A DNA stretch of 51,119 nt from a virus: positions 1 through 51,119 of IMG/VR virus record IMGVR_UViG_3300037225_000040. One strand, 5' to 3'. The translations under genes and the position numbers were made by a program. Under the pieces are notes generated by a model that saw nothing but the letters and a program-made list of their open reading frames with translations, was not told the DNA's origin and ran no database searches. Positions 1,695 through 51,119 of this stretch are shown in pieces; positions within the stretch are counted from its first letter, which is position 1; each line of letters starts with the position of its first letter.

Positions 1695-1895
1695 ATGGAA
1701 ATATTTATAGATCATAAATTAGAATTTATTAATATTAGTATTGATAATGATAGACCTGGACTTAATAGTAAACCTTTCTTTCTTATCTTTGAAGAAAACT
1801 ATTTTAGAAGAGATATTGTAAATGGAGAAAGACTTACTACAACTCCTAGTTTTGTACATCCTAAAACTACATTTGAGATAGTAAAAAATGATTAA
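1695..1895 (+). CDS. Small hypothetical protein preceding terminase
   Basis: A 66-residue protein with no recognised domain. It is rich in Phe, Ile, Asn and Asp, with no clear membrane segment. It starts 3 bases after the DUF6527 gene, and its last 8 bases (ATGATTAA) overlap the start of the terminase gene in another frame. This overlap and the codon use support translation. The product may matter mainly for translational coupling to terminase; this is inference. Confidence 0.6.
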   Translation: MEIFIDHKLEFINISIDNDRPGLNSKPFFLIFEENYFRRDIVNGERLTTTPSFVHPKTTFEIVKND

Positions 1896-4194: not shown

Positions 4195-4196
4195 TT

Positions 4197-32145: not shown

Positions 32146-32146
32146 T

Positions 32147-34603
32147 ATGGGAATGGATTTTGCTAAATTTAATCCTACTTATGTAGGTGCTCCTCTAGAT
32201 ACCTATGAGAAGACTGGTCAAATTCTAGCTAATAGATGGACTCAGAATGTCGATAGATTAGATAAAATTGGAGAAACTCTTAGTAATATATCTAGTAGTA
32301 TTGATCCTAAAAATCAAGGAATATTAGATGATGCTCAAGCTAAAATTAATACTACTTTATCTGGTATTGGTACTAACTATCAATTTGCTGATGGTGCTAT
32401 AAGAGAAGCTACTAGATATATTACTCAAAATGACATGCTTAGAGCTGCTCAAATTGATTATGAAAATCAAATTAAAAATAGACAACAAAATAATCAAGCA
32501 CTAATTGATGGTAAAACTACTCAAGAAGGACTTAAAGCAACTAATATAATGGATCAAGTTGTTAATAGTAAACCTCTTACTAAAGATCCTGTGGATGGTA
32601 GTATTCAAAATAGATATAAACCTATGATGGCTCCTGCTGATCCTAAAGTTAGTGATAAAATAATAGCTCTTACTAAAATTATTACTAGTCATCCTGATGA
32701 GATTACAAAATGGATTGATCCTGATATGGCTGGCTATTTAAAAGAAGCTCATATATCATTTGTTGATTCAAATAAAGTAGCTGCTACTCTTAAGAGTTAT
32801 CTTAGTAATCAACCTGAAATTAAAGGATATTATGATTATATTAACAATGCTAATATGATTGCACAATATGCTAAAACTGATGGTAAAGGTAATTTTCAAT
32901 ATGATAACAATGGAAATCTTTTATATAATGATATTACTCCTGAAGATTTTAAAAATAATACAGGTTTGCAAATTGATGATAATTGGAATATTTTAAGTGA
33001 TAAAAAAACAGTTAGACTTCCTGATGGAACTACAAAAGAAGTTCAAATGGATAACACTCCTAATAATCTTTTAGTTAGTTCTAATGTAAAATCATATTTT
33101 GATACAGTTGCAAATGCTATGGAATCTGTAGTTCCTGGTAGTAGTGATATTATTAAATCTGGATTTAATGATGTTATTGCAATGAATGGAGTTACTCAAC
33201 AAGATGTTATTCGTGCTCATTATCTTAATCAACTAACTAGTGATTCTCTTGATCGAAAAGTTGATTTTGCTGGAGGTTTAGGTTATCAAAAAAATACTAC
33301 AAAAGAAGTTGAACTTAAAGGTTATTGGCAAGATCGTCAATGGCGACATGAAAAAGAATTAACTCAACCCGCTTATATAATTAGTAATACTAATACTCCA
33401 TATAAGAGTGAAAATTTTAATATAGATGATTATAAAAATACTTTAACTGGTATTAATGATCAACTTCAAAAAGTTTCTAAAGATTCTCAAGAATATAGTG
33501 ATTTGACTAGAAGAAAAGATGATGTAGAAAATAGTATTAAAATGTTTACTAATTCTTTTGCTAATACTAATCTTGGTCAACGTACTATAAATAATGCTTG
33601 GAAAGAATATCTAGATGGACTTAGTCCTAATCTTCAAACAAAATATAAAGATACTAAATATTTTAATGAATTTAAAGATTATCTTAGTGGTAGTACAGAA
33701 GAATTAACAAATCTTGATCATACAATTGGAAAAAGTATAATAAGTCCTCCTGGATATGCACCTTCATCAAAGGGTTATCCAGAAGGTTCTACTACTGTTC
33801 TTAAAAATATAGATTATTTTAAAAATAATTTTGATAAAACTACAGAAGATGCTGTTAAAACAAGTGGAGTTGCTCTTAGTGGAACTGCTGCTTGGATATA
33901 TGATACAAATAACAAATTAGATACTATTCATAATAGTCTTGGTACTTTTGCAATATCTAATAGTGGTTCTTTTGAAGTTCCTGGTGCTGAAGGTGGAGTT
34001 AAAACTCTTGATCAATATATTGCTAATAAAATACCGAATTTTAATCCTTCTGAATATACTATTACTGCTGCTCCTAATAATCCTACTGCAGGAGTTGGTG
34101 GAGTTTGGACATTAAATATTGTACCAAATAATAATTATCCTAAAGAAAGAGCTGGTAAACCAGCTACTCCTATATCAATTCAAAATCTTTCTGTTACTCC
34201 TAGTAATATTGAATCTAATTTACATTCTTTAGCAGGACAATTATATAATAATGCTAGTAGTCCAGAAGTACAAAAATTAGCTAAGAATTTAATGGTTTCT
34301 TCTATATATGGTAAAGATTTTGATCAAGCACTTCTTGAATATAAATTACTTAATGCTGCTGGAAAACCTACTGTTCCATATGTAAAAAGATTTTATGGAA
34401 CTGCTATCGCTAATGGTAACCTTAAAGATAATTCATATTTGGAACTAAGAGAAGATACTCCTGGTAGTGGTAATTTTATTACTAGTTTAGTTCAAGAAGA
34501 TAAGAATGGTATTAGGAATGCACAACTTAATGAAACTCCTATGAATATAAGAAGTACAGAACAATTTTTATTTGATAATTACTACGGAAAACAATCTAAA
34601 TAA
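32147..34603 (+). CDS. Virion cargo/ejection protein, helical
   Basis: An 818-residue protein. The N-terminus MGMDFAKFNPTYVGAPLDTY fits the start of a crAss-like cargo protein family (F-x-P-x-YVGAPL followed by long helices). Residues about 20-120 are helical with regular charge (RWTQNVDRLDKIGETLSNIS). The remainder mixes helical and Asn-rich loop regions; PDGTTKEVQMDNTPNNLL and later QRTINNAWKEYLDGLS are examples. It lacks enzyme motifs and clear membrane segments. Position between the first cargo protein and the virion RNA polymerase suggests that all three travel together in the head and enter the cell at infection. Start is the ATG 2 bases after the previous stop. Confidence 0.65.
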   Translation: MGMDFAKFNPTYVGAPLDTYEKTGQILANRWTQNVDRLDKIGETLSNISSSIDPKNQGILDDAQAKINTTLSGIGTNYQFADGAIREATRYITQNDMLRAAQIDYENQIKNRQQNNQALIDGKTTQEGLKATNIMDQVVNSKPLTKDPVDGSIQNRYKPMMAPADPKVSDKIIALTKIITSHPDEITKWIDPDMAGYLKEAHISFVDSNKVAATLKSYLSNQPEIKGYYDYINNANMIAQYAKTDGKGNFQYDNNGNLLYNDITPEDFKNNTGLQIDDNWNILSDKKTVRLPDGTTKEVQMDNTPNNLLVSSNVKSYFDTVANAMESVVPGSSDIIKSGFNDVIAMNGVTQQDVIRAHYLNQLTSDSLDRKVDFAGGLGYQKNTTKEVELKGYWQDRQWRHEKELTQPAYIISNTNTPYKSENFNIDDYKNTLTGINDQLQKVSKDSQEYSDLTRRKDDVENSIKMFTNSFANTNLGQRTINNAWKEYLDGLSPNLQTKYKDTKYFNEFKDYLSGSTEELTNLDHTIGKSIISPPGYAPSSKGYPEGSTTVLKNIDYFKNNFDKTTEDAVKTSGVALSGTAAWIYDTNNKLDTIHNSLGTFAISNSGSFEVPGAEGGVKTLDQYIANKIPNFNPSEYTITAAPNNPTAGVGGVWTLNIVPNNNYPKERAGKPATPISIQNLSVTPSNIESNLHSLAGQLYNNASSPEVQKLAKNLMVSSIYGKDFDQALLEYKLLNAAGKPTVPYVKRFYGTAIANGNLKDNSYLELREDTPGSGNFITSLVQEDKNGIRNAQLNETPMNIRSTEQFLFDNYYGKQSK

Positions 34604-34604
34604 T

Positions 34605-37600
34605 ATGACTAATCCAACTCTTCCTGTTGAAAAAGTACTTCCTAATACTCCAACAGATTCAGCTACAAATACTTCTTCTCCTTCTACTACACCTAGTAAT
34701 ACAGAGGTTAATGATCCTAATAAAAAATCTATACCTACTGTTGATGTAAGTAGTTTTATTAAAAGTAATGATAATGAAAAAGTTGAGAAACCTATAGATG
34801 TTAGTAGTTTTCTTTCTACTCCTACTGCAAATACTGAGTCTGATAATGCTGGTTTTTATGATCAGAGTATAATGAAATACAATAAATTTATTAGTAATTA
34901 TAATCCTGATAGTAAAAACCTAGATGCTGAAGCTGCATATGGACAAAGTGCTTGGGGAAAAGTTGGTAATATGCTTATGAAAGGTGTCGTTGGAGATGTT
35001 TTAAATCAAGGTGTTATTGGTGGAGTTGGTGCTTTAATTGGTGTTCCTCAATTATTATATCATGCTATTAAAGGAGATGATGAAGAATTTAGTAATTTTC
35101 TTACTGATTTAGCTGATAAAAATAGTAAAGCATTAGATGAACAATATCCTATCATGTTAAAACATCCTGGTAAATCTTTTGACGTAGGAGATTTTGGATG
35201 GTGGTGTGATACTGTTGAAAAAGGAGTATTTCCTATGATAGGAATGCTTCTTCCCGCTGAAGGAGAAGCTATGGCTTCTGGTTGGATCAGTAAAGGACTT
35301 AAAGGACTTAGTGAATTAGAAGATATTACTAGTGCTAGTAATGCCGCAAAATTTGGAAGTAATGTAATTAGTAAAATAGCTGATTTAGGAGATACAAATA
35401 AATATTGGCAAGGTCTTGCTCATAGATCTCTTATTATGAGAAATAGTATGAATTTTCAAGATGCTATGGCTACTCATAATAGTATTACTGAAGAAGCTCT
35501 TAATGATTTTAAAGATAATAATAAATATCAAGAAGTTCTTAATAGTAAAGTAGGACAAGACTTTGTAAAAAGTGGAAGAGTTGTTAATCCTGCTAATTTA
35601 GCTGAATATTTAGGTGCTAAAGCGTCATGGGTTAATTATGGTTATAATGCTGCAAATATTATATTTGATGCAGTTCAATTTGCTCCTGCTTTAAGAGGAT
35701 TTAAAACTGCTACTCGTGAAGGCATGTTTAGTATTACTCCTACTAGTGTTCTTAAAGCTCAAGCAAAAGCTGTTGGTGAAACATTATCTACAGGAAGAAT
35801 TCTTGCTAATAATGCTTTAATGGGAGGAGAAAGAGTTATTGAAGGTATGACTGGTGGAGCTGCATTAATGGGTTATGGACTTGCTAGAGAAGAATCTAAT
35901 TTATATGGCAAACAACTTCTTGGAGATGCTAGTGAAAAAGAAAATGATTCTACTTTTATGGATCGTCTTGGTAATTATTTACAAGACCCTAATTCTTATG
36001 AATCTGCATTTGTTGGTGGTCTTGGTGGTTTAGTATTTGGTCAAATTACTAGAAATATTAATAGTGTTAGAGCACTTATAAAAAATGAAGCTGATCCTAA
36101 TAGTTATGATGCAAGAGTTAAAGAAATTGAATCTCGTGTACCTATAATTGGAGAATATACAGGTCTTATTAAAAATATACTTGAAGGTATTGATCCGGGT
36201 ACTAAAAAAACATTTGTTGGTACTGATGATGAGATTGCAGAAAATAAACAACAATATATTGATAAATATCAGTCTGAATTAGCAGATAACTTAGGACTTA
36301 ATGCTAGTAGACATGGTAATGTTGGTTCTCTTATTGCACAATTAGATCATCCTAATTTTCAAAAGGAATTAGTTGAAATGGGATTTGCTAATGAAAAAAC
36401 TATTAGTGAAAAAGTTAGTAGTCTTAAACAAAGTATTCTAGATGCTGAAACTTCATATCAAAGTATTTATAATAAAGTATTTTCTAGTTGTGCAGAAAAA
36501 GGTAATGAAGGTATATTAGATATTATATTAGGACAAGGAGTTCTTACTAATGGTACAATAAAACGTCTTGATAAAAGTAGATTAAAATATGAAGATGAAG
36601 CTAATAAAATATTACAAGATAATCCTTCTTATGAAACTTTTAAAACTCAATTTCCTGATCATGATGTAGATGGTACTTTACAAAATGCTGCAAATATCAG
36701 AGCAATTCAATATATTAATAGTTATATAGATAACGAAAAAGATCCTATTGTTCAAGATTTTATGAAACGTAGACTTGAACAACGTAAAGAAGAATTTCGT
36801 CAAGCTAATAAAGATTTAGGAGATAAGAAATTACCTTCTAATTATGAAGATTATGTTGATCTTACTTCATTAGATAATTATATTGATAAAAAAGCTAGTG
36901 CTCTTCTTTTAACATTTGCAGGAGATACTCAAAAGGCTAAGTTTGAAAAACAAACTAATCCTACAACTGGAGTTAAGACTGCAAAAAATATGATTGATCG
37001 TAGTGTAAAAATAGCTAAAGATAAATCTTTTAATACTTTTAAAAGTAATACTGATGCTCAATTTACTCCAACTAAAAATGAAACATTTGATACTATTAAA
37101 GATAAAATTGATAAATTAAATGCTTTAAAAGACCAAGTTAGTAAAAATAAACAAAATCCTTATGATACTAAAATTACTGGTAAATTAGAAACTGAAGATA
37201 TTAATAAATATCATAATCAAATAGATGCTAAAACAACAGCTCTTGAACGTGAAAAAACAAGGCTTACTAACAATGATAATTTTAATAAAATACTTACAAA
37301 TGGACTTCAATCTTTATTTAATGAAAGTGGTATAGATATTAAAGTAGAATATACTAGAACTCTTGAAAATCCAGTTGTCAAAAAAATAGTTGATAATATT
37401 AATAATAAAACTAGACTTACTAGTCCTCTTGGTAATAATGGAATAATACAAGAATTGGAAAATCATATTAGAAATGGTAATAATGAATCAATTACACTTC
37501 CAAGTGGAGAACATATTCCTTTAAGAGATGCTCTAAAAGAATTTATAAAAAATGATTTAAACAATAATTATAAAGTAGCTAAGAATGCTAATCTTCATCA

Positions 37601-40600
37601 AGAATTTGTTAATGCTCTTCTAAGTAAAATGGGTTATATTCCTAGAAAAGTTGATTCTAAATCTAATACTCATATAGATAATCTTAACAATTTTGAACAA
37701 AATATAAAATCTGAGCCAGCAGTTTCTGGAGAATCTATTACTAATTCTAATATTAAACAAGATGCCAGTAAAGAAAACAGTGGGAACAAAGAAACCGAAA
37801 GTAGTAAAGAAAGTACCGAAAAAAGTGGTAAAAAAAGTGGTAAAAAAAGCTCCGAAAAAGTAGGTTTAATTGATCCTAATCAAACAGAACTTCCCTTTAA
37901 TGAGGGAAGTTCTCCTTTTGGTTCTGGTTGGAAAGAAATTAGTGGTTCTGAAGCAGATGCTACTCCTAATCAAGATTTAATAAAAGTTGATAAGAATACT
38001 GGTAAGATTTATATAAAAGATAATTCTCAATCTACTTTAGATTTTAATAAAGCTGGACAAGATACTAAAGTTCGTAATGCACTTAGAGTTGTTACTGATT
38101 TAGTTAATCATACTGAAAATGGTAAACCTATATATACTGATGAAAAAGTATATGGTGGTGCTAAAAAGTCTGTATTTATTCATTTTAATGATCTTCTTGC
38201 ACAATTTGCTAAAACTGCAACTAGAGATCAACTTGAACGATATTATAATACTTTACAAGAAGCTTATATTGTAGCTTCTACAGTTAATAAATCTACTAAT
38301 GGAATTACTGAATTAAAGTGGGATTCAGCTAATAAAGTTCATAAACTTGATATTAAAACTGTATTAGATAGATATAGTACTGCTGATCCATTTGCTACAG
38401 ATCATTTTAAAAACTCTGGAGTTATTGAAGAAACAGGTGGAAAAGGTGCACTTAATACTTATCCTTTTATAAAAGAAGGACTTAATAATAATAGAACTCA
38501 AGAAGGTCATATTTCTGTTAGTCCTGAACTTGGTAAGCAATTAGATTTAATATTAAATCAATTAGGACAAGATTCTACAATTCGTATAAGACTAAATACC
38601 GACTATGCAAGTAAAAACAACTTGTCATTAAATGAAGATAACTTTGACAATTATCCTATTGTTATAGAAGCAAATAGTGGAGATAGAACTATTCCTATTG
38701 CTTCTCTTAATACACTTTTTACAGATCATAAAGGAGTACGATATAAATTTGATGGTAAAGATTGGACTGATCTTCTTTTAAGTGATAATCATAATGGAGA
38801 TCATAGTATTTCTGCTTCTGAACGACTTGGTGCAATTTCCAATTTATATCCCGATTTACAGGCATGGTTCAATTCTGTAAGAAATGGTGCTACTAATACT
38901 AAAGAAGCAAATGATATATTAGATCATATTTACGAGAATGATCCTATAGATGTAATTAGTGATCTTATAGGACATGATAAAATATTAACTAACAAACAGG
39001 GAAAAGAAGCTTTAAAACATATTCTTAATGTTATGTTTTTTGGTGAAAATATTAATAAAAGTGCTGATCTTCAGTTTAATACTGTTCGTACTTTAACAAA
39101 TATTCAAGCTTGGAAAGATAAATTGTATAGAGATCATGTTAATAATAAAAAGATTCGTAATATTATAGGAAATGATCCTACTAAACAACTTGAAAGTACT
39201 ATTGTACATCGTACTAGTGGAAGTGTTGTAACTACACAAGACCTTGATGGAAATATGACTTATGGTAAAGTTGGAGATAGATTTCTAACTGAACCTAAAT
39301 TATACAAAGTAAAATATAAAAATGATAAAAGAGTTTTATCTTCTATTAATAATGATGCGCCTGAAATGGGTACTCCTAAAGGTGCTAAATTTACTTTTTA
39401 TGCTGGATTAGTTGATCCTAGTAATCATGAAAATATAATTCCTATTGCTCTTATGCCTAATTCTTTAATGGGAGATATTCATCCTGTTAAAGATGGACAA
39501 CATATTGTAGATACTGTTCATGGATTATTAATGCAACTTGGAGAACTTCGTAGACAAGCTGAAACCACAAATATTGAAGGAACTAATTCTGATCTAAATG
39601 ATGTACATAATAAAATAAATGAAGTTGAACATAATTTACAAAATTATGTTAATGTTACTAGTGCTAATAAAGATAGTGATAATATTCCCACAAATGGTGG
39701 ATTTTTAAACACTAATCATATATTTGAATTTACTAGTAAAGTTGATGATAAAGATGTAACTATTAGATTTAATCCTTTTGCAGATCCTAAAGATAGTAAA
39801 GAATCTCCTTATACTTATTATAGAAGAGATGGTAATGATCTAATTAGTAAAAGACTTTCTGAAGATGAATTTAAAAATCATCTTGGTGGAATTAAAAGAA
39901 ATGTTAATTATGATAATTTTGGTAAACCTTTTGAAGGTTATGATACATATGAAGATTATTTACTTAAAAGTGGTAGTTACGTTACTAATGTTGGTCATAT
40001 AATTGATACTGATGGTAAAAAGATTAGTAATTTTACTATGAGTGGAGATAATAATTATGGTGGTGCTAATTATATAATGAATATTGACACTGATAAATTT
40101 AGTCAAAATAACACTGGAATTGATACTTTATCTAAATTAAGAGTTACTCATAATCTTGATCAAAGTTATGATTTTGCTATGAATATGGCACAAAGTATGA
40201 TTGATGATAACAATCTTACTTTTGGTGGAATGAATAAAGAAATGGATAATCCTAATGCTTTTGCTCAATATAATCCACGTACAAAAGCTATAGAACTTAG
40301 TAATAAATGGGAAGAAAAATATAAAGAAGATCCTGCAGAAGCTACTAGATTATTAGTACATGAAATAACACATGGTAAAATAAATACCATGCCTAAAGAA
40401 GAAAGAGAATCATTAAGAAATGATTTAAGAGATTTTCATAAAGATATTATTGCTACTGATGAATATAAACAATTATTATCAATTCCAGAGGACAAAAGAA
40501 CAGAACAACAAAATACTATTATTAAAATAATGGATGCTTCTTCTAAAGATCAAGATGAACTTCTTACTTATGGTTTAACTAATCTTGATCTTGCTCATTT

Positions 40601-43600
40601 TCTAGATGGAATTAAGGGAAGTGAAACAATCGAAACTCCTAGTTTTGTTAATAGACTTAAAAATATTATTAGAAGATTTTTTAATAGTACTGGAGTTAAA
40701 GGAAGTAAACTTGATGATCTTACTTCTATATTTGATAAACATTTTGATAGTCATATTGTTGGAGAACGTCAAATAGAAGATCTTAATGAAAACGAAGTTA
40801 ATTTACCAGAAGTAGATAGAGATGCAGATTACTATGATGTTAGTGATCTTCCAGATTTACAATCTGCTATATTTAGTTCTAGTGATACACATAATTTTAC
40901 TGATGAACAAAAAGATTTTCTAGATGCTTTTAGACAAGTTACTCCTAATAATTTTACTCGTAGAGAATATACTCTTCAATCTGCTGAAAGTAAACAACTT
41001 GTTTTAAAAGATTTATTTCCAGATGCAAAAGTTACTATTTCTAAAGGAGTAGATACTTATTTAGTTCGTCTTAATACTAATACTAATACTGAAGAATCTA
41101 AACCTGCTACTATAACTTCTAGTAAAATTCGTGAAATATTTACTGGAACTACTATGGATGATATTCATAAGAGTAATTTATTAGATGTAGCTTCAGATTT
41201 CTTTCTTAGATATATGGAGGGTCTTGGACAAGATATAAATAAAATTAAAATTAAAGATATAGGAAATGAAACTAGAAATAATCTTGGTAGACTAATTTTA
41301 AATGATGCCTTAATTAAACATCCTGAGGATTTTACTGATGAACAAAAAACTTTCTTAAAACAAGGAGTTAATGAACTTAAAACTAATGATGTTTTGTGGA
41401 ATGACTTTAAAACTCAACTTCATATAAATCATGCAGTTCGTATTGTTGATAGAAATGATCTTATAGATTCTAATGAAATTCTCAAAAAAGGATGGGATGA
41501 TGAAGCTGCTTATAGAATTAATCCTATTGATACAATAACTAATGAAGTTCGTCAACTTATAAATAGAACACGAGTTGTTGATCCTAACAATACAACTATA
41601 GATAAAAATGGAAATGTTGTAATTAAAACTGACACTAATACTCCTACTGGTTATCCTAATCTTTTAAAATATAATGAAATTGGTGCAAAATTAATTGAAC
41701 TTTCTTCTAATGCAATTAATAAACAAGAAGTACTAAATGAACTTTATAAATATGCTACTACTGTAAATAATCCTAAAGCTAAAAGTTTACTTAGTATTTG
41801 GGATAAACTTCGTAAAGATGATAGTCTTCTACAAACTTGGGTTGCTAATATGGATAAACAAATTATGCAACAATATCGTACTTTATTTACTAGTAAGGAA
41901 GGTAATAAAACTGTAGATATTGATCTTTCTAATAAAAACATAGGTGCATTTGCAGTTGCTAATGAATGGCTTAATACTATTGTAACTAGAACTCAAAGTA
42001 ATTATTATACTCCTGCATTTACAAAAGATTATGAAGAAAGTTTCAAAAAAATTATAGATGCTAGTAGTATAAAAGGTGTAATGTTTAAAATAATGGATGA
42101 TAAAATTGCTAGTGATCTTAGTAATATTTATCATAAATTAGGACTTGATATTGGTGCTGATAATATTAAATATGAATTTACTAAAGATCAAAGTAATTTT
42201 GTAGCTAATATGGTTGCTCCTGTACTTTATCTTAAAAGTCTTGGAGATAAAGCAGAAACTAAAGCATATATAGATAATTATAATAAAAATGAAAATTATA
42301 AATTTGGAGAATATGGTAATTTGCTTAATCTTGCAGCACATACTGTTTATTTTAGAGATAATGTAAGTAATTATTCAAATACTAATATCAACAACAATCT
42401 TGTTTATGATGCTCAACAACATCATTTTCTAAGTGTTTTAATGAAGAAACTTCATAGTAATCCTGAAAGTGCTTATAATACACTTATTGAATATACTAAG
42501 GTTCCGTCTAGTCAACACTCCCTCTTTTTATGGGGGGATCAGCAGACTGAAAATGGAGATACTGTAATTGAAGGTAGAGGTTTTATTAATTATACTATTA
42601 AAAATGGAATAAAAGTTCCTATAAGTCTTGAATCTGGTGGACTTCATATTGATAATTTAAATAATTTTAAATATCTTCCTTTGGATGGTATGAAAGATAT
42701 TATGAAAGGAACTTCAAAAGAATATAGTGATCTTAATGAACGTGATTGGAATTTACTTACTATGATTAATTATTTAGGTGGTAGTAAAATTGCAGATAAT
42801 GCAATACTTCCTTTAATTAATCCTTCTGATAGAGGTAGAAGTGGTTTTCTTCAAGTTCCAAAAATTTCTATTGATAATAATTTTATAAAACTTTTATCTA
42901 ATAGAAATAGAACTCCAGAAGAAAATACTACTTTTTATAATCATCCTATATTTAAACAAATTAAAAATACTATCTATGGAGAAGCTACTGATATGCTTAC
43001 TGCTATGGATGTACTTTTTAAAAAGAATGATAATGGACAATATAATAATAATGATTTAAATGATGTTACTCCACAATTATATTATCATTATAAATTAGAT
43101 GATAATGGTAATAAAACATATATTGCTACTAAAAAGAATGTAGATGGTAATACTATTATAGATGAAGATAAAAGTGGAAATGCTTTTAGATTTCATAATA
43201 TTTTACTTAATATTAATGGTAAAGAAAGAAATTTAAATAATATTACTATAGGTGGCAAAGTACTTACTCAAATACTTTTTGAAACTGAAGATTTAAAACA
43301 AGCACTTAATTATAAAGGTGCAACTATTAGTCATCCTGAAGGAGAAACTGTTGATAGTTTTCTTAATACTTTTGTTGATGGTTTTATTGTTAATCAACAT
43401 AATAATGGTAAAGATATATTTGAAAAATATCAAGATGAACTTAGTCAAATAAATAATAAAAAAAGAAATAATAGTGGTGATTTTGCTTTTAATCCAATTA
43501 CTACTCCTGAAGATTTTGAAAGACATACTACAGAATTTATGCTTAATAATTATTTGCATAATACTGAACAGATAAGAATGATGTATGGTAGTATTGCTGA

Positions 43601-46600
43601 TTATAAAACATTTGTAGATTTTAATAAACGTGCTGGTCAAATACTTGCTACTGGTATAAATAATAGTATTACTCCAGATACTGAAGCAACTGATCCTAAT
43701 TTGCAAAGTGGTACATTTACAGGTTCTACTATTTCTGATGTTTTTATTAGATCTAAAGTTTATGATGAAAGACTTAAAAGTTTGTGGAGTAAATTTCAAC
43801 CTGAACTTAAAAATGGTGAACCTAAAGAACTTACTGACAATAAAAAGAGACTTTTTAATAAAATTTATGATAGTAGAGCAAAAATGGAAGCTGCTATTAA
43901 AGATCCTATTGAAAGACAAATTTATGATTTAGCTTCTCCATATCTTAGTAATGATGCAGCTAATGCTACTACATTTATAACTCTTCCTGAGTTTGAAAGA
44001 AGAGTTAGAGGGTTTGGTAAATATTCTCAATATAAAGATATTATTAATACTCTTAATGGTAATGAAGAATTAAGTAGAGATCAATATATTAGATTAGCTA
44101 CTATGCAAAAAAACTTCTATTATTCTAATGAATATAATGAAGAATTAAGAAAAATGGTTCCTAATCAAATTAAAAATGCTGAAGTTATACTTAATCCTCA
44201 ACTTATTAAAGGTCTTCAATTAGAAGAACTTGTTAAAACTATGGATGAAGCTGGAGTTCATCAAGTTACTTTAGCAAGTGCTGAAAAATTAGGTACTTTA
44301 AATATTGCTACTATTCATAATTCTAAAGGAGAACTTTTAGATCATAATACTGTTGTTGCACAATTAAAAAATGCTAGTCGTGCATATAATTATGCTAATC
44401 TCCGTATGCAACAAGAAGTATCTGATAAAGTTATAGATGAAGATAATAAATTAGGAGTTCAAATATCTAAAAAGATTCTTAATAATATTCCTAATGATAG
44501 TGACTATACTGTTAACGGAGAAAAAATAAAAGGAAAAACTCTTAAAAATCATACTTTCAATCTAATGGTTCATAATATTGAAAGTAGTGCTAGAGATCTT
44601 TGTAATAATTATGGTGTAGATTATGATTCTTTAGATAAATATGTAAATATTGATAAAATTATTACTAAATTATCAGATTCTCAACCTAATGACACTGCTT
44701 CTAACAATAGTAAATTCGCATTAAAAATTAATCCTGAAACTGGTAAACCTAATATTCCTCTTTCTTTTAGTCTTATGTCTGAAGCATATGAAGCTGTTTT
44801 AACAGGAGATGTAACTAAAAATGTTACTAATCAACATTTTCCTGGTCTTCATACTTATCAAATGTCTGATTTGTTTATGACTCCTGGTAGTGGAAAAAGA
44901 GCTAGTGATTTACTTCAATCTAAATCTAATACAGATGGTGTTAATTGGTCACAAGATATTATTGATAGAGGAGATTATAAACTTCGTTCTACTCATGAAA
45001 ATACTAAAGATGGTACAACAGTTCATGCAGAAGTTCTTCTTCCTAGATGGAGTTCTATGTTTTTTAAAGATGGACAAAAATTAGATATTAATGATCTTCC
45101 TGAAGATGTACGTACAATGGTAGGTTATCGTATTCCTACGGAAGATAAGTATTCTATGTACGTATTTAAAGTTGCTGGTTTTCTTCCAGAAAGTACTGGT
45201 GCAACAATGGTACTTCCTGATGATTTTATTACACAAACAAATGCTGACTTTGATATTGACTCTGTATTCAATATGAGTCATAATCTTTATACAGACAAAA
45301 ATGGTAAAATTGCTTGTATTCCTTATGATCAAAAGATGGATGATAAATCTATTACTAGTAGAAGAAATAAATATGTAAAAAATACTTCTGCTGGTAGAGA
45401 AATAGCAAATGAATATGATCCTAAAATTACTGATCTTTATAATAGAATTCAAGAAGCATGGAGCTCTGATACTAAAAATATAACTGATGATAAAATTAAA
45501 AATCTAGCTGCTAAAGAAGATGTAAAACCTTTTCTAGATGTTCGTCAAGATCTTAAAGAAGAAGCAGACATTTTATCTCAAACTATTGATCAGATTGATA
45601 CTAATCCTGATATTGCTGTAAAAGTATATAAAACTATTAATAAATTATCAGGTAATACAGATATTGATGTTACTCCTGATAATGTACGAGATCTTTATAA
45701 TAAAGAACTTGATACACTTAAACAAAAACAAACATATATAGAAGATCAATATAATAAGTTTAATGAAAGTCAAAAGAATCAAGCTAATGAACTTAGTGCA
45801 TCATATGATATTCGTAAAAATAGAAATGAACTTTTATTAAAACAAAAAAATGATCTTATAAATGAACGTAATGTAAAATATGACAATTTACTTAGTAATA
45901 AAGATTTTAGTAAACTTCCAATAGAACAACAAAATACTGTAGAAGCTAGACAGAATAGACTTCTTGATATTTATAGTGGTATATTAGATAATCCTAATCA
46001 TATTGCTGAAATTACACAAGGTTCTACTTTTAAAGATATTACTGCTTCTAAAACTAAACTTGAAGAAATACTATCTTCTAAAGATCCTAATTATAAAACA
46101 AAGAATATTCCTGTTACTACTTATGATGGTCAAATTCAGTATAGAAAACGTGTTATGGAAGGTAGAAATTTAAAAGGAATTTCAGTAGGAGCTGATGGTC
46201 TTATTTCTATTTCTGAAGTTGCTAATATGGGTATTACTAATTCATATTGTCCTGTTACTAAAATTAAAATTACTGATATAAATCAAGAAAAATATCTTAA
46301 AAAATCATTTAACGCTAAAATTGTAGGAAAAGATAATACAAAACTTGAAGATAAAGATAAGACTAGTGATAGATTTGCTCTTATTTATCATAATAAATTA
46401 GGAAATAATCCAGAAGGAACATTTACAAATGTTGAAGGTAACAAAATTACAGCATATAGTGCTCAAACTACTGCTAATATTTTGGATAACGTAAAAGATC
46501 CTATTCCTCCAAATATCAATCCAAACACTTTTGGTATTTGGAAAATGTTTGCTTCTACTGGTTCTACATATAATATTGCTACTGCATTTATTAATCAAGA

Positions 46601-48977
46601 TGCAATACGAGATATTATAACTGAGAATATGAACGAAAATAATAATGCAATTAATGATATTCGTTCACAATATCAGACTTGGCTATATCAACTTCAAGCT
46701 GCTAGAACTGGTGTTAGAAATGCCAAATATGATTCAGCAATTAATCAAGGTTTTAATATTAGAGTTTATGATGATAAAAAAAGTGGTGAAAGAGGATATA
46801 GTAAATTAGGATACGAAAAAGGAACTATTATTCCTATTGAAGAAAAAGAGTTATATGATAATATAGCATTTGCTAAGAAAAGTGAAATACAAGAAGCTGT
46901 TAAAAATCCTACTTCTAATCCTGAAAGAGTTAAACAAATAGAAGATTATCTTAGGTATCAATGTCAAATGATTGAATCTTTTGAAACACTTAAAAGAACT
47001 TCTAATCAACTTGCAAGTGCTGCTACTATATTTAATACTGATAAAATAGGAGTTGGACCTAGTTTTGAAAATACTATTACATTATTAGATATGATTACCG
47101 AATTTAGTAATGAAGAAAAAGAGTTTAAACCTCCTCTTATTCTTCATATAAATGGTAAAAATCCAGCAGTTGCTATTTATCCTCAATTTTTTAAAGGACA
47201 TGAAAAAGAAAATAGTGTTTATCCTACTCTTCAAAAATATCTATTTGATAGTAATATTTTAGGACTTTCTTTATTTAGAGAACATTTTATTAATTATTCT
47301 CCTGCTTATATAAGACTTAAAGAGAATTTTCACTATAAATTAAATCTTCCTTATAATGAAAGTACTGCTAAACAATTTAGTACTTATTTAAATACTAGAC
47401 TTCTTTATGATCATCCTTATCTTAGTACAATAGGTAAAGAGGAGAGAGAAAGAATTATTGGAATTAATCAAAAAGTTAATACTACATTAAATCTTAATGA
47501 TCAAACTAATCTTCCTATTTTTCAATCTCTAAGTACAGCTAACAAAGTACAACTTCTTAAAGAACATCTTCGTACTACTGATGAAGATATAGATAATAAT
47601 ATTTTAACATATCTTCAAGCTAAAACTAGACAAGAAGACTTAGAACATAATGGTTATCATAAAATTGATTTGATAAATAATGATCGTGGTGATAAACTTG
47701 TAAATAGTTTTAATAATCTTTGGTATAGTGATAATCCATTTCAAAGAGATACTGCTAGAGATATTGTTAAATATGAATATCTTATTAATGGTATTAATTA
47801 TGGATATAATTCAATAGCCAAACTTATACCAAATAATATTTTTGCTTTTGATAGTAATGATGAAGAATTAAATAATGAATCTGGTATTGGTCTTTCTTCA
47901 CATATTTATGCTAAACAACAAGTAGCAAATTCTGATGCTAAATATGATGTGGAAAAACTATTTGGCAATACTGAAAATGACATTCATGAAAACTTTTTAA
48001 GAAGTAATTGGGAAAATAATAAATTTGTTCCTGATGCAGCTACTATAAAAGTAAATAGAGAAGTTAATGGTAAAAATCAGAATATAAGACTCTTTCAAGT
48101 AGATGATAAAACTAATACAATACGAGTAGATGCTAGATATCTAGATACTATTCATAATTCAGAATATCAAAATATTCTTGATAGAGATATTGTTAAAATT
48201 AAACATGAAGTTGGAGATAAACAACATTGGCAATTATATAAAAGATTTATTGGACTTGTTGATGAAACTGCTATTAAAGATAAAGATGGAAATGATTTAT
48301 TTGTTCATAAAGGTAATCTTCTTTATTTTCCTATATCTAAATTAGAAGGTTCTGAGAGTGGTGCATATAGTATGATTGATGCTAATAATCTAGATAGATA
48401 TGGAAAAAAGATAGATACTTATGAAGGTTATATTTCTAAAGTTCTTACTGATGATAATAGTACAGATAATAATAATGATATTCATCCTATAAAGATGGAT
48501 ATGAATTATGATACTAAACATGCTAAATTCCGTGATGAACTTAAGAGTTATAAAAATACTATGGAACTTATTAGAGATGGTAAACGTACTGCCACTACTA
48601 GATATTGGAATAATAATCAAGAAGCTCAAAAATGGGTTGATGCTAAAGAAGGAACTTATATCGAACTTAATAGTAAGTTTTCAGATCATCCTGAATTTAT
48701 AAAAGTTACTAAAGCACTTCATAATATTGATCTTAATGAACTATCTGCACGTAAAGAATGGAGTGAAAAAGAAGGATGGGATATTACTCTTGCACATGAA
48801 CTTGAAAAAAGAAATGATCTTTGGCAACTTGAATTTAAATATATTGGAGATAAAGATGCAGTTGATAAAGATAGACTTAATAGTATTAAAGATGAAGAAC
48901 TTGAAGAATCTCAAAATGCTGAATTTTCAAGTAGTAAAGATAAAGAAATTGATGATCTAATTAAATTTTGTCACTAA
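34605..48977 (+). CDS. Giant virion RNA polymerase polyprotein (zincin + RNAP + ASCH-like)
   Basis: A 4790-residue protein. ATG 34605 is preferred over 34572, which lies in the preceding gene. Residues 1-80 are Ser/Thr/Pro/Asn-rich with a repeated VDVSSF motif. A helical, partly hydrophobic N-terminal region follows (GVIGGVGALIGVPQLLYHAI near 145), then a Lys/Ser-rich linker at about 1050-1090. A zincin-like metallopeptidase carries HEITH at 1919-1923 and a probable third ligand E1985 in DQDELLTYGLTN. The RNAP core has GYRIPTEDKYSM followed by the catalytic DFDID at 3548-3552, the signature of crAss-like single-chain RNA polymerases such as phi14:2 gp66. The last 150 residues look like an ASCH/PUA domain (MELIRDGKRTATTRYW ... 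EGWD). The protein is probably packaged, injected and possibly self-processed; processing is inferred. Confidence 0.88.
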   Translation: MTNPTLPVEKVLPNTPTDSATNTSSPSTTPSNTEVNDPNKKSIPTVDVSSFIKSNDNEKVEKPIDVSSFLSTPTANTESDNAGFYDQSIMKYNKFISNYNPDSKNLDAEAAYGQSAWGKVGNMLMKGVVGDVLNQGVIGGVGALIGVPQLLYHAIKGDDEEFSNFLTDLADKNSKALDEQYPIMLKHPGKSFDVGDFGWWCDTVEKGVFPMIGMLLPAEGEAMASGWISKGLKGLSELEDITSASNAAKFGSNVISKIADLGDTNKYWQGLAHRSLIMRNSMNFQDAMATHNSITEEALNDFKDNNKYQEVLNSKVGQDFVKSGRVVNPANLAEYLGAKASWVNYGYNAANIIFDAVQFAPALRGFKTATREGMFSITPTSVLKAQAKAVGETLSTGRILANNALMGGERVIEGMTGGAALMGYGLAREESNLYGKQLLGDASEKENDSTFMDRLGNYLQDPNSYESAFVGGLGGLVFGQITRNINSVRALIKNEADPNSYDARVKEIESRVPIIGEYTGLIKNILEGIDPGTKKTFVGTDDEIAENKQQYIDKYQSELADNLGLNASRHGNVGSLIAQLDHPNFQKELVEMGFANEKTISEKVSSLKQSILDAETSYQSIYNKVFSSCAEKGNEGILDIILGQGVLTNGTIKRLDKSRLKYEDEANKILQDNPSYETFKTQFPDHDVDGTLQNAANIRAIQYINSYIDNEKDPIVQDFMKRRLEQRKEEFRQANKDLGDKKLPSNYEDYVDLTSLDNYIDKKASALLLTFAGDTQKAKFEKQTNPTTGVKTAKNMIDRSVKIAKDKSFNTFKSNTDAQFTPTKNETFDTIKDKIDKLNALKDQVSKNKQNPYDTKITGKLETEDINKYHNQIDAKTTALEREKTRLTNNDNFNKILTNGLQSLFNESGIDIKVEYTRTLENPVVKKIVDNINNKTRLTSPLGNNGIIQELENHIRNGNNESITLPSGEHIPLRDALKEFIKNDLNNNYKVAKNANLHQEFVNALLSKMGYIPRKVDSKSNTHIDNLNNFEQNIKSEPAVSGESITNSNIKQDASKENSGNKETESSKESTEKSGKKSGKKSSEKVGLIDPNQTELPFNEGSSPFGSGWKEISGSEADATPNQDLIKVDKNTGKIYIKDNSQSTLDFNKAGQDTKVRNALRVVTDLVNHTENGKPIYTDEKVYGGAKKSVFIHFNDLLAQFAKTATRDQLERYYNTLQEAYIVASTVNKSTNGITELKWDSANKVHKLDIKTVLDRYSTADPFATDHFKNSGVIEETGGKGALNTYPFIKEGLNNNRTQEGHISVSPELGKQLDLILNQLGQDSTIRIRLNTDYASKNNLSLNEDNFDNYPIVIEANSGDRTIPIASLNTLFTDHKGVRYKFDGKDWTDLLLSDNHNGDHSISASERLGAISNLYPDLQAWFNSVRNGATNTKEANDILDHIYENDPIDVISDLIGHDKILTNKQGKEALKHILNVMFFGENINKSADLQFNTVRTLTNIQAWKDKLYRDHVNNKKIRNIIGNDPTKQLESTIVHRTSGSVVTTQDLDGNMTYGKVGDRFLTEPKLYKVKYKNDKRVLSSINNDAPEMGTPKGAKFTFYAGLVDPSNHENIIPIALMPNSLMGDIHPVKDGQHIVDTVHGLLMQLGELRRQAETTNIEGTNSDLNDVHNKINEVEHNLQNYVNVTSANKDSDNIPTNGGFLNTNHIFEFTSKVDDKDVTIRFNPFADPKDSKESPYTYYRRDGNDLISKRLSEDEFKNHLGGIKRNVNYDNFGKPFEGYDTYEDYLLKSGSYVTNVGHIIDTDGKKISNFTMSGDNNYGGANYIMNIDTDKFSQNNTGIDTLSKLRVTHNLDQSYDFAMNMAQSMIDDNNLTFGGMNKEMDNPNAFAQYNPRTKAIELSNKWEEKYKEDPAEATRLLVHEITHGKINTMPKEERESLRNDLRDFHKDIIATDEYKQLLSIPEDKRTEQQNTIIKIMDASSKDQDELLTYGLTNLDLAHFLDGIKGSETIETPSFVNRLKNIIRRFFNSTGVKGSKLDDLTSIFDKHFDSHIVGERQIEDLNENEVNLPEVDRDADYYDVSDLPDLQSAIFSSSDTHNFTDEQKDFLDAFRQVTPNNFTRREYTLQSAESKQLVLKDLFPDAKVTISKGVDTYLVRLNTNTNTEESKPATITSSKIREIFTGTTMDDIHKSNLLDVASDFFLRYMEGLGQDINKIKIKDIGNETRNNLGRLILNDALIKHPEDFTDEQKTFLKQGVNELKTNDVLWNDFKTQLHINHAVRIVDRNDLIDSNEILKKGWDDEAAYRINPIDTITNEVRQLINRTRVVDPNNTTIDKNGNVVIKTDTNTPTGYPNLLKYNEIGAKLIELSSNAINKQEVLNELYKYATTVNNPKAKSLLSIWDKLRKDDSLLQTWVANMDKQIMQQYRTLFTSKEGNKTVDIDLSNKNIGAFAVANEWLNTIVTRTQSNYYTPAFTKDYEESFKKIIDASSIKGVMFKIMDDKIASDLSNIYHKLGLDIGADNIKYEFTKDQSNFVANMVAPVLYLKSLGDKAETKAYIDNYNKNENYKFGEYGNLLNLAAHTVYFRDNVSNYSNTNINNNLVYDAQQHHFLSVLMKKLHSNPESAYNTLIEYTKVPSSQHSLFLWGDQQTENGDTVIEGRGFINYTIKNGIKVPISLESGGLHIDNLNNFKYLPLDGMKDIMKGTSKEYSDLNERDWNLLTMINYLGGSKIADNAILPLINPSDRGRSGFLQVPKISIDNNFIKLLSNRNRTPEENTTFYNHPIFKQIKNTIYGEATDMLTAMDVLFKKNDNGQYNNNDLNDVTPQLYYHYKLDDNGNKTYIATKKNVDGNTIIDEDKSGNAFRFHNILLNINGKERNLNNITIGGKVLTQILFETEDLKQALNYKGATISHPEGETVDSFLNTFVDGFIVNQHNNGKDIFEKYQDELSQINNKKRNNSGDFAFNPITTPEDFERHTTEFMLNNYLHNTEQIRMMYGSIADYKTFVDFNKRAGQILATGINNSITPDTEATDPNLQSGTFTGSTISDVFIRSKVYDERLKSLWSKFQPELKNGEPKELTDNKKRLFNKIYDSRAKMEAAIKDPIERQIYDLASPYLSNDAANATTFITLPEFERRVRGFGKYSQYKDIINTLNGNEELSRDQYIRLATMQKNFYYSNEYNEELRKMVPNQIKNAEVILNPQLIKGLQLEELVKTMDEAGVHQVTLASAEKLGTLNIATIHNSKGELLDHNTVVAQLKNASRAYNYANLRMQQEVSDKVIDEDNKLGVQISKKILNNIPNDSDYTVNGEKIKGKTLKNHTFNLMVHNIESSARDLCNNYGVDYDSLDKYVNIDKIITKLSDSQPNDTASNNSKFALKINPETGKPNIPLSFSLMSEAYEAVLTGDVTKNVTNQHFPGLHTYQMSDLFMTPGSGKRASDLLQSKSNTDGVNWSQDIIDRGDYKLRSTHENTKDGTTVHAEVLLPRWSSMFFKDGQKLDINDLPEDVRTMVGYRIPTEDKYSMYVFKVAGFLPESTGATMVLPDDFITQTNADFDIDSVFNMSHNLYTDKNGKIACIPYDQKMDDKSITSRRNKYVKNTSAGREIANEYDPKITDLYNRIQEAWSSDTKNITDDKIKNLAAKEDVKPFLDVRQDLKEEADILSQTIDQIDTNPDIAVKVYKTINKLSGNTDIDVTPDNVRDLYNKELDTLKQKQTYIEDQYNKFNESQKNQANELSASYDIRKNRNELLLKQKNDLINERNVKYDNLLSNKDFSKLPIEQQNTVEARQNRLLDIYSGILDNPNHIAEITQGSTFKDITASKTKLEEILSSKDPNYKTKNIPVTTYDGQIQYRKRVMEGRNLKGISVGADGLISISEVANMGITNSYCPVTKIKITDINQEKYLKKSFNAKIVGKDNTKLEDKDKTSDRFALIYHNKLGNNPEGTFTNVEGNKITAYSAQTTANILDNVKDPIPPNINPNTFGIWKMFASTGSTYNIATAFINQDAIRDIITENMNENNNAINDIRSQYQTWLYQLQAARTGVRNAKYDSAINQGFNIRVYDDKKSGERGYSKLGYEKGTIIPIEEKELYDNIAFAKKSEIQEAVKNPTSNPERVKQIEDYLRYQCQMIESFETLKRTSNQLASAATIFNTDKIGVGPSFENTITLLDMITEFSNEEKEFKPPLILHINGKNPAVAIYPQFFKGHEKENSVYPTLQKYLFDSNILGLSLFREHFINYSPAYIRLKENFHYKLNLPYNESTAKQFSTYLNTRLLYDHPYLSTIGKEERERIIGINQKVNTTLNLNDQTNLPIFQSLSTANKVQLLKEHLRTTDEDIDNNILTYLQAKTRQEDLEHNGYHKIDLINNDRGDKLVNSFNNLWYSDNPFQRDTARDIVKYEYLINGINYGYNSIAKLIPNNIFAFDSNDEELNNESGIGLSSHIYAKQQVANSDAKYDVEKLFGNTENDIHENFLRSNWENNKFVPDAATIKVNREVNGKNQNIRLFQVDDKTNTIRVDARYLDTIHNSEYQNILDRDIVKIKHEVGDKQHWQLYKRFIGLVDETAIKDKDGNDLFVHKGNLLYFPISKLEGSESGAYSMIDANNLDRYGKKIDTYEGYISKVLTDDNSTDNNNDIHPIKMDMNYDTKHAKFRDELKSYKNTMELIRDGKRTATTRYWNNNQEAQKWVDAKEGTYIELNSKFSDHPEFIKVTKALHNIDLNELSARKEWSEKEGWDITLAHELEKRNDLWQLEFKYIGDKDAVDKDRLNSIKDEELEESQNAEFSSSKDKEIDDLIKFCH
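37886..37913 (+). promoter_or_regulatory. Terminator-like hairpin inside the giant RNAP gene
   Basis: AGAACTTCCCT (37886-37896) and AGGGAAGTTCT (37903-37913) form a perfect 11-bp stem with loop TTAATG, followed by CTCCTTTTG. It falls just after the Lys/Ser-rich linker, near residue 1094 of the encoded protein. It has the form of an intrinsic terminator or attenuator, but it lies inside a 14-kb ORF. Confidence 0.55.
40359..40373 (+). other. Zincin HEITH motif in the RNAP polyprotein
   Basis: Codons for H1919-E-I-T-H1923, preceded by the helix ATRLLV and followed by a helix. E1985 in DELLTYGLTN is the probable third zinc ligand. The pattern fits a gluzincin-like protease helix. Confidence 0.7.
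45246..45260 (+). other. RNA polymerase catalytic DFDID motif
   Basis: Codons for D3548-F-D-I-D3552. The three aspartates should bind catalytic Mg2+ in the double-psi beta-barrel. RIPTEDKYSM about 40 residues before matches the R-x-PT segment preceding NADFDGD in cellular RNAP beta-prime. Confidence 0.9.
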
Positions 48978-51119
48978 TGATTAAATGTCCTGTTGAAACA
49001 GATCCTAACTTTCAAAGCATAGTTAGAGAAGTTGGTATTGATAAAGCATATGATATATATAGGAATGAAGATGATATTCCTAGAATTGGTGTTGCTCCTA
49101 ATGGAAAACCTAGTGAACAATATACTAAACTTCCTTCAGAAGTCGCTAATAAATGGTGGTTAGTAAGCAAGACTAGTGAATATAAAACTAAATTTAATCC
49201 AGAAATTGATTCTAATGGAGAATCTATTATTGAATTAACTCCTGAATTTAAAGATTTTGCAAATAGTTTTAATGGAGATGTTCCTCAACCTTCATATATA
49301 AGTTCTAGTTCTGAAGCAGTTAATGAAGCTATGACTGCTACTAATACATTTATTAAAAAAGTAGCTGCTGCTACTGCAAATATGGCTAAACAATATAAAA
49401 GTACAAGTATTGATATGCTTATGAAAGGTTTTGCAGATACTAGAATTAGAGATGATATCGGAATTAATGATCTTGGTAATCTTGCAGAAGCTCTTAAATA
49501 TACATTAGATTATTTTCAAGAAACTATGTATATTGAACCTAATGAATCTCGTAAAGGTGGTATTATGGTTCAGTTGAATAAGTATGGAAAAATGAAAATG
49601 GAAGATATTTTAAAAGATCCTAAAGTTACTTCTGAACTTGATTCTTTTCTTAAACATGCTAGTACATTTGTTGATAATTATAGTAACGTTGAAAAACTTG
49701 AACATCTTGACGGTGGAGAACTTATGACAGAAGGAGAAGAAGTTATTAATAATATGGTTTCTCAACTTCAATCTTTTACTGGGGATGTGGCTAATGCAAG
49801 AAATAAACTTAGTAAACTTCTGGAAAAAAGATTTGAAGAAGATCTTATGAAATATACTACAAATCCTGAACTTTTGGATGGTATGCGTAAGATGTTTGAT
49901 GTTGGTGATGACGAAAATATGGCTCAATATATGCTTAATGCTTTAGCTGATACTAATAATCCATTCATAGGAAATATGATGAAAAAGTATCATAGAATGA
50001 CTGAAGATGCAAGACATGAATATACTGATAAATCTGATACTCTTAGAAAACTTCTTAAAGATACTTTTGGTCGTAATCCTAAAGATCTAACTGATAAAGA
50101 TTTTGAAAAGTATTTAGAACATAGAAATGGAGAACGTACTGGAAGATATGCACAAAAATTTGATTGGGAACGTTTTGATAGAGAAAAAAGTGATTATTTT
50201 GAAAGTATTAAAAATCTAAAAAGAAGTAATCCTGCTGCATATAGAGAAAAAGCTAAAGATTGGTATGAAAATAATGAAGTTTCTCTTATGTCTCAAGATG
50301 AGATAAAAAATACTATTGATAAAAAAAGAGGAGAACTTAGTTCTAGACAATTTATTATTTGGGCTAATAATAATTTTAGGTTTATTGATGGTAAATATCG
50401 TACTCGTCTAGGAAATGGTATATTTAGAGAACCTCATGAAAGATTTCAAAGTGATAATTGGGAAAGTTTAAAAAATGATAAATTATATCAATTTTTTATT
50501 AATGAAACTAAAAATATTACTGATAGTTTTGGTAAAGATTCTATACTTTCAAAAGGATATATTCCTAGTGAACATCTTCCAGAAGAAACTGAAGGCATAA
50601 GAGGTATAGTTGATGCTTTTTTAAAAAGTGGTGAATATAAACAAAAAAATGCTTCTTTCATAGGTACTAATGATCAGATTGTTAGATTGCTTAATACTCC
50701 TATGGATACTTATTATAAAGATCAAGATACTATTAAAATTCGTCCTAAAGGATTTAATGAAGATAGAAAAGAATGGGAACAAAGTGTTCTTGCAGATGTT
50801 AAAAATACTACTGGAAAAGAGTTTACTAATGTTAAAGATATATATAACGAAAATAGACGTATAATTGAAGAAAATAAAAAGACTCATGCTGAATCTATCA
50901 ATTATAATCTAGCAAGTGTATTTGATGATTTTTTAAAAGCTGGAACTACATTTAAATATAAGCAAAGCATGAAGAATCAATTTGATCTTGCTGCTAGACA
51001 ACTTAATGATATGAAATTTCATGATAGAGATAGTAAAGGAAGTTTAATTAAAAACAAAGCTGCTAGTGACTTTCTTAATGATAAAATACTTAAAACTAAA
51101 TCTGGAGAAGGAACTAATC
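48977..51119 (+). CDS. Second giant virion protein (3' partial)
   Basis: An open frame from ATG 48977 (MIKCPVETDPNFQSIVREVG) to the end of the window with no stop, at least 714 residues; the rest lies outside. The ATG shares one base with the RNAP gene stop (TAATG), so translation is coupled. The visible part is highly charged and helical: NEAMTATNTFIKKVAAATAN near residue 120, an acidic stretch EGEEVINNMVSQLQ near 250, and many Lys/Glu helices after 330 (MKKYHRMTEDARHEYTDKSD). I see no enzyme motif. Crassvirales encode one or more further giant proteins after the DFDID subunit, and this is in that position; it probably is packaged with the polymerase. Function is otherwise unknown. Confidence 0.8.
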   Translation, partial: MIKCPVETDPNFQSIVREVGIDKAYDIYRNEDDIPRIGVAPNGKPSEQYTKLPSEVANKWWLVSKTSEYKTKFNPEIDSNGESIIELTPEFKDFANSFNGDVPQPSYISSSSEAVNEAMTATNTFIKKVAAATANMAKQYKSTSIDMLMKGFADTRIRDDIGINDLGNLAEALKYTLDYFQETMYIEPNESRKGGIMVQLNKYGKMKMEDILKDPKVTSELDSFLKHASTFVDNYSNVEKLEHLDGGELMTEGEEVINNMVSQLQSFTGDVANARNKLSKLLEKRFEEDLMKYTTNPELLDGMRKMFDVGDDENMAQYMLNALADTNNPFIGNMMKKYHRMTEDARHEYTDKSDTLRKLLKDTFGRNPKDLTDKDFEKYLEHRNGERTGRYAQKFDWERFDREKSDYFESIKNLKRSNPAAYREKAKDWYENNEVSLMSQDEIKNTIDKKRGELSSRQFIIWANNNFRFIDGKYRTRLGNGIFREPHERFQSDNWESLKNDKLYQFFINETKNITDSFGKDSILSKGYIPSEHLPEETEGIRGIVDAFLKSGEYKQKNASFIGTNDQIVRLLNTPMDTYYKDQDTIKIRPKGFNEDRKEWEQSVLADVKNTTGKEFTNVKDIYNENRRIIEENKKTHAESINYNLASVFDDFLKAGTTFKYKQSMKNQFDLAARQLNDMKFHDRDSKGSLIKNKAASDFLNDKILKTKSGEGTN

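Follow-up and report, generated by a model that had tools for sequence, protein, structure and literature searches.

The Locus and Its Phage

The window analysed here is a 51,119-base IMG/VR record (IMGVR_UViG_3300037225_000040), a 51-kb fragment with the early genes and promoters outside its view. Its TerL, portal, and MCP match phage packaging and head families. TerL (window 1888-4194) shares 42% identity with cr127_1 (Crevaviridae), its nearest annotated relative, and about 32% with Intestiviridae terminases, identities which place the window among the Crassvirales. As identity to the nearest annotated relative is only 42%, the phage probably belongs to an undescribed Crassvirales lineage. 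The ORFs of the locus are as follows.

29713..34603, + strand: two ORFs of 810 and 818 aa, directly upstream, at the place of the crAss001 cargo-protein genes gp45/gp46 (synteny only)
34605..48977, + strand: ORF of 4790 aa that fuses the N-terminal/zincin module (1) with the RNA polymerase and ASCH module (2) (sequence, BLAST)
48977..51118, + strand: following ORF, truncated at the end of the contig; module 3, the RNAP-associated protein (BLAST)

The central ORF runs from ATG to TAA without interruption and encodes 4790 aa plus stop, which agrees exactly in coordinates, length, and continuity with the single chain that an earlier note on this DNA had claimed. Its size is not a chance occurrence given that the second-longest ORF of the window has only 1470 aa. 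The RNAP gene sits in a transcription block beside virion structural genes, as in Crassvirales gene order, and the two upstream ORFs gave no sequence match to crAss cargo proteins at E<=1e-4.

The RNA Polymerase Core

41082..48044, + strand: RNA polymerase module (aa ~2160-4480), with homologues in phi14:2 gp66 and in the N-terminal half of Carjivirus gp44 / crAss002 gp33 (BLAST, profile, fold)
44106..44534, + strand: candidate DPBB-B at aa 3168-3310, the model's first segment rich in strands, holding invariant Lys3190 and Lys3228 (6VR4 match)
45129..45158, + strand: RIPTEDKYSM, aa 3509-3518, R-x-P motif equivalent (motif, alignments)
45246..45260, + strand: DFDID, aa 3548-3552, putative metal-binding catalytic aspartates, candidate DPBB-A (motif, alignments, 6VR4 match)

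Searched as a single sequence against Pfam, PHROGs, and the PDB, the 4790-aa chain gave nothing useful, and alignments were required. Pfam matches to CobT, PDDEXK_9, and SpoIVA_C fell below threshold and were discarded. Scans of viral_contigs (with a single protein) and of genome_contigs, both dependent on exact short peptide patterns, found no relatives. By tblastn and blastp the chain matches putative RNAP proteins of crAss-like phages, with colinear blastp matches to crAss002 gp32 and gp33, Carjivirus gp45 and gp44, R. jaberico, and cr107_1; aa 2588-4434 are the counterpart of the first half of crAss002 gp33 / Carjivirus gp44. When a profile was built from 12 crAss cores, phi14:2 being left out, it recovered the phi14:2 virion RNAP (6VR4) at E 3.2e-40 over profile positions 7-444 (hmmsearch). 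An AlphaFold model of aa 2960-4090 (pLDDT 77.8), for which the alignment included 34 IMG/VR relatives, matches 6vr4_A in a Foldseek search of the PDB at E 9.7e-30 over 1073 columns, with no other PDB chain at 0.001 or better. The TM-score of 0.55 over the query, with an rmsd of 16 A, is moderate, and domain placement is therefore uncertain. The whole-core match and the invariant Lys3190 and Lys3228 fit two double-psi beta-barrels, the candidate barrels being assigned via that match.

The DFDID signature and the preceding R-x-PTEDKYSM segment, on which the earlier note had based its polymerase call, were found at residues 3548-3552 and 3509-3518. RIPTEDKYSM we take to be the counterpart of the R-x-P motif in beta'-type RNAPs. 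Both in an alignment of 13 crAss-like RNAPs and in one of 35 sequences including the IMG/VR relatives, the R.P...DxDxD columns show little or no variation; no change is seen at Lys3190, Lys3228, R3509, P3511, or any of the three aspartates. Catalysis in the window protein is predicted only, and a degenerate or non-catalytic RNAP relative serving structure or ejection alone might be proposed; however, the catalytic-site residues are intact and invariant over 35 sequences and the sole DFDID of the chain occupies the position aligned with 6VR4, leaving this proposal very little probability. The profile, the fold, and motif conservation bear out the polymerase call, and we conclude that the ORF is a predicted crAss-type (phi14:2 gp66-like) DNA-dependent RNA polymerase with its catalytic motif intact. 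Structure prediction in segments, which had been suggested as a check, led from the core to 6VR4 and from the C-terminal 190 residues to ASCH folds.

The N-Terminal Region and Zincin

34782..36737, + strand: conserved region near the N-terminus, aa ~60-711, with homology to the beginning of crAss002 gp32 / Carjivirus gp45 (tblastn/blastp)
40032..40754, + strand: zincin-like metallopeptidase region, aa ~1810-2050 (motif, conservation)
40359-40373, + strand: HEITH, aa 1919-1923, the sole HExxH of the chain (motif)

The N-terminal region is conserved across Crassvirales and contains one hydrophobic segment, aa 137-155, by hydropathy. A role in ejection is inferred for it from homologues. The zincin region corresponds by BLASTP to crAss002 gp32 / Carjivirus gp45, and for the window protein Pfam named no peptidase family that passed its cut-off. 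Among 24 relatives picked by their HExxH, H1919, E1920, and H1923 are invariant and E1985 is present in at least 90%; the zincin previously proposed for this chain is supported by HEITH at 1919 and this near-invariant Glu1985. A second HExxH (HELDH) was observed in locus L014, at aa 5057 of a 5199-aa ORF, near the C-terminus and in a region without a BLAST match to the window.

Constant Module Order, Moving Gene Boundaries

Three colinear modules recur in Crassvirales, the N-terminal/zincin module (1), the RNAP (2), and the RNAP-associated protein (3), and the positions at which they are cut into genes vary. In phi14:2 each is separate (1|2|3; gp67, gp66, gp65), in crAss001 gp47 lies on one strand and gp50 and gp49 on the other, and the Intestiviridae and cr127_1 have the layout 1|2+3. 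The window and Flavobacterium phage FpV4 share the layout 1+2|3, the N-terminal part of FpV4 being placed by position and length.

40632..40979, + strand: counterpart of the crAss002 gp32/gp33 gene boundary, aa ~2010-2125, fused in frame here (projected from BLAST coordinates)

The ATG of the module-3 ORF overlaps the TAA stop of the 4790-aa ORF (TAATG), and its product has homologues in the C-terminal half of crAss002 gp33 / Carjivirus gp44 as well as in the C-terminal part of a 6063-aa relative. This closest relative found, IMGVR_UViG_3300027972_000001 (G001, loci L094/L129), shares 30-39% identity and is colinear along the whole chain. Where the window has two ORFs, the relative has all three modules in a single 6063-aa ORF (L129:203-18391, - strand). 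Its catalytic motif is DFDMD rather than DFDID, and in place of HEITH it has a decayed zincin, HDTIH, in which the catalytic Glu is replaced by Asp. The ASCH domain is present, and the relative also carries an ART-PolyVal insertion (aa ~2067-2181, 7e-13).

Other Crassvirales have the first two modules as separate genes with short gaps between them, and a lost stop codon or a frameshift could in principle have joined two normal genes during assembly. However, among the 77 related IMG/VR loci whose core could be read, 35 have HExxH and DxDxD in a shared ORF, 1282-2057 residues apart, and on this count we rejected an artefact. In addition, a 4287-aa ORF of the isolate FpV4 carries the RNAP late in the chain and is followed by an ORF of 1596 aa, and the closest relative of the window is colinear over 6063 aa. 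An assembly error is, in our judgement, most improbable.

The description of the chain as unusually long did not hold. Fused IMG/VR ORFs reach 5642 aa, with one of 5542 aa (L064) lacking HExxH, and a review puts crAss-like RNAP genes at up to ~6000 aa and considers giant RNAPs a hallmark (PMC10136315). Together with the 6063-aa relative, these led us to reject 4790 aa as a record size. Giant RNAPs are an already known hallmark of Crassvirales, and the window protein is another example.

The ASCH-Like Domain

48492..48860, + strand: ASCH-fold domain, aa ~4630-4752 (AlphaFold model, PDB fold matches)

The AlphaFold model of the C-terminal 190 residues is confident (pLDDT 87) and its top PDB fold matches belong to the ASCH superfamily, namely YqfB, EF3133, 3s9x (L. 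crispatus ASCH), and ZmASCH (Zymomonas), which confirms the ASCH-like region suggested earlier. By Pfam PF04266 the window scores 13.2 bits, below the curated cut-off of 21.2, and at E<=0.5 Pfam ASCH weakly matches 11 of the 22 family members, the best of them at 5e-4. R4661, T4664, R4666, and E4723 are conserved among the ASCH-domain family. The amidohydrolase YqfB uses a Thr-Lys-Glu triad with an oxyanion Arg (PMC6972931). Judged by motif spacing, T4664, R4666, and E4723 fit the nucleophile Thr, oxyanion Arg, and acid Glu of YqfB, and the base Lys of YqfB is Arg in all ASCH family members. On this substitution a binding role appears more likely than YqfB-type hydrolysis, and we speculate that the domain is probably an accessory that binds RNA or a modified base.

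In 20 of 36 ASCH-bearing ORFs, from 34 loci fetched via the ASCH domain alone, the RNAP profile finds a match too, with several near-duplicates among the loci and therefore fewer independent events. In ORFs with both, the distance from DxDxD to the downstream ASCH domain is usually about 770-1300 residues. Of the annotated phages and the 80 nearest RNAP loci, L075 alone has an ASCH domain. As judged from these sequences, ASCH is a patchy, recurrent partner of predicted crAss-type RNAP chains.

Several further observations concern this domain. In L075 (14126-15415), an RNAP chain of 4989 aa has a DUF7831 (Pfam 3e-7) immediately ahead of its ASCH domain. Loci L094-L127 contain an ASCH-like subfamily (GxRTATTR...WSxxEGW) within giant phage ORFs of up to 3863 aa in the fetched stretches; those without an RNAP match are giants too, and a Pfam scan of four ASCH-bearing giant proteins returned no domains. 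In L126 (contig IMGVR_UViG_2974731583_000001), in-frame stops divide the RNAP and ASCH pieces among several short ORFs, suggesting introns, recoding, or decay.

Probable Packaging and Delivery, Possible Processing

We consider it very likely that a crAss-type RNAP has been fused to a virion cargo/zincin protein and that the product is packaged, delivered, and used for early transcription, the last three steps being drawn from homologues. The RNAP would be joined in frame to a protein which many relatives encode in a separate upstream gene, and the whole chain would be packaged as virion cargo by homology to phi14:2 and crAss001. The phi14:2 proteins gp65-gp67 are annotated from MS/MS proteomics, and crAss001 gp47, gp49, and gp50 have been detected in virions by mass spectrometry (PMC10172136). 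Judging from these homologues, the window RNAP is probably carried in the virion. Delivery would occur with the genome, N-terminal module first and the chain partly unfolded; the tail passage of such cargo in crAss001 has been discussed as partial unfolding during extrusion (PMC10172136). The RNAP module would then refold and transcribe early phage genes without host RNAP, much as the phi14:2 vRNAP works in vitro and accounts for the early transcription that resists rifampicin (PMC10136315).

The zincin lies about 100-200 residues before the gene boundary of other phages and may cut the chain near aa 2010-2125. One could go further and regard the chain as a polyprotein, cut by its zincin near the module 1/2 boundary after synthesis or injection to release the polymerase as a separate ~2700-aa protein. 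The zincin directly precedes the position of the boundary, the product would resemble the RNAPs that phi14:2 and crAss002 encode in genes of their own, zincin-like peptidase processing has been proposed for polyvalent proteins, and N4-type virion RNAPs are almost always fused to a metallopeptidase domain (PMC5512222). However, the 6063-aa relative has Asp in place of the zincin Glu, and no HExxH was found in either of the fused chains of L064 and L080 (5065 aa). A polyprotein is possible but rather unlikely. The HDTIH of the closest relative weakens obligatory self-processing, and in combination with these two chains it argues that cutting by the zincin is not obligatory in the family, the preferred reading remaining a fused polymerase delivered as virion cargo.

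The polyvalent proteins themselves are multidomain, are thought to be injected, and include zincins, ARTs, and virion RNAPs in N4-like phages; the paper that describes them mentions neither crAss nor ASCH (PMC5512222). The window chain combines RNAP, zincin, and ASCH, and the 6063-aa relative adds ART-PolyVal. By analogy, the 4790-aa chain resembles injected polyvalent proteins, a likeness of function. That it acts as an injected multi-enzyme package, with ASCH working on nascent RNA or modified bases and the zincin freeing parts in the host, seems to us doubtful.

Comparison with Known Systems

New here are the recurrent ASCH partner and the 6063-aa relative with ART-PolyVal and a decayed zincin; the shifted gene boundary also deserves note. 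The crAss-like transcription block keeps its module order while the cuts between genes shift, at the extreme leaving one chain of 6063 aa, which makes it testable whether the N-terminal, peptidase, and polymerase modules are delivered as one covalent unit. The ASCH and ART additions tie crAss-type RNAPs to the theme of polyvalent injected proteins.

The window protein is like phi14:2 gp66 (6VR4) in having a single-chain RNAP core with DFDID, with gp67 and gp65 at the places of modules 1 and 3. However, gp66 has 2180 aa and is separate from gp67 (1797 aa), and the phi14:2 HExxH is in gp65; no ASCH match was found in phi14:2. Carjivirus communis gp45 and gp44 and crAss002 gp32 and gp33 (Intestiviridae) have colinear modules, zincin then RNAP, with about 22-33% identity to the window in matched stretches. 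Their gene boundary falls between zincin and RNAP (1|2+3), whereas that of the window falls after the RNAP (1+2|3). FpV4 (Fipvunavirus) has a similar layout, its 4287-aa product being a 'putative structural protein' with the next ORF separate as in the window, but it has DYDID, an HExxH after the RNAP motif, and 23% identity, and it gave no ASCH match.

A giant polypeptide carrying an RNAP is also shared with coliphage N4 and with gp96 of Thermus phage P23-45. The N4 enzyme is a T7-type single-subunit RNAP, unlike the crAss-type core of the window. Both the N4 virion RNAP and P23-45 gp96 are known as giant virion polypeptides with an RNAP (PMC5512222, PMC10770324). In P23-45 a two-barrel RNAP is joined to the tape measure protein, unlike the window, where the fusion is to the N-terminal/zincin module.
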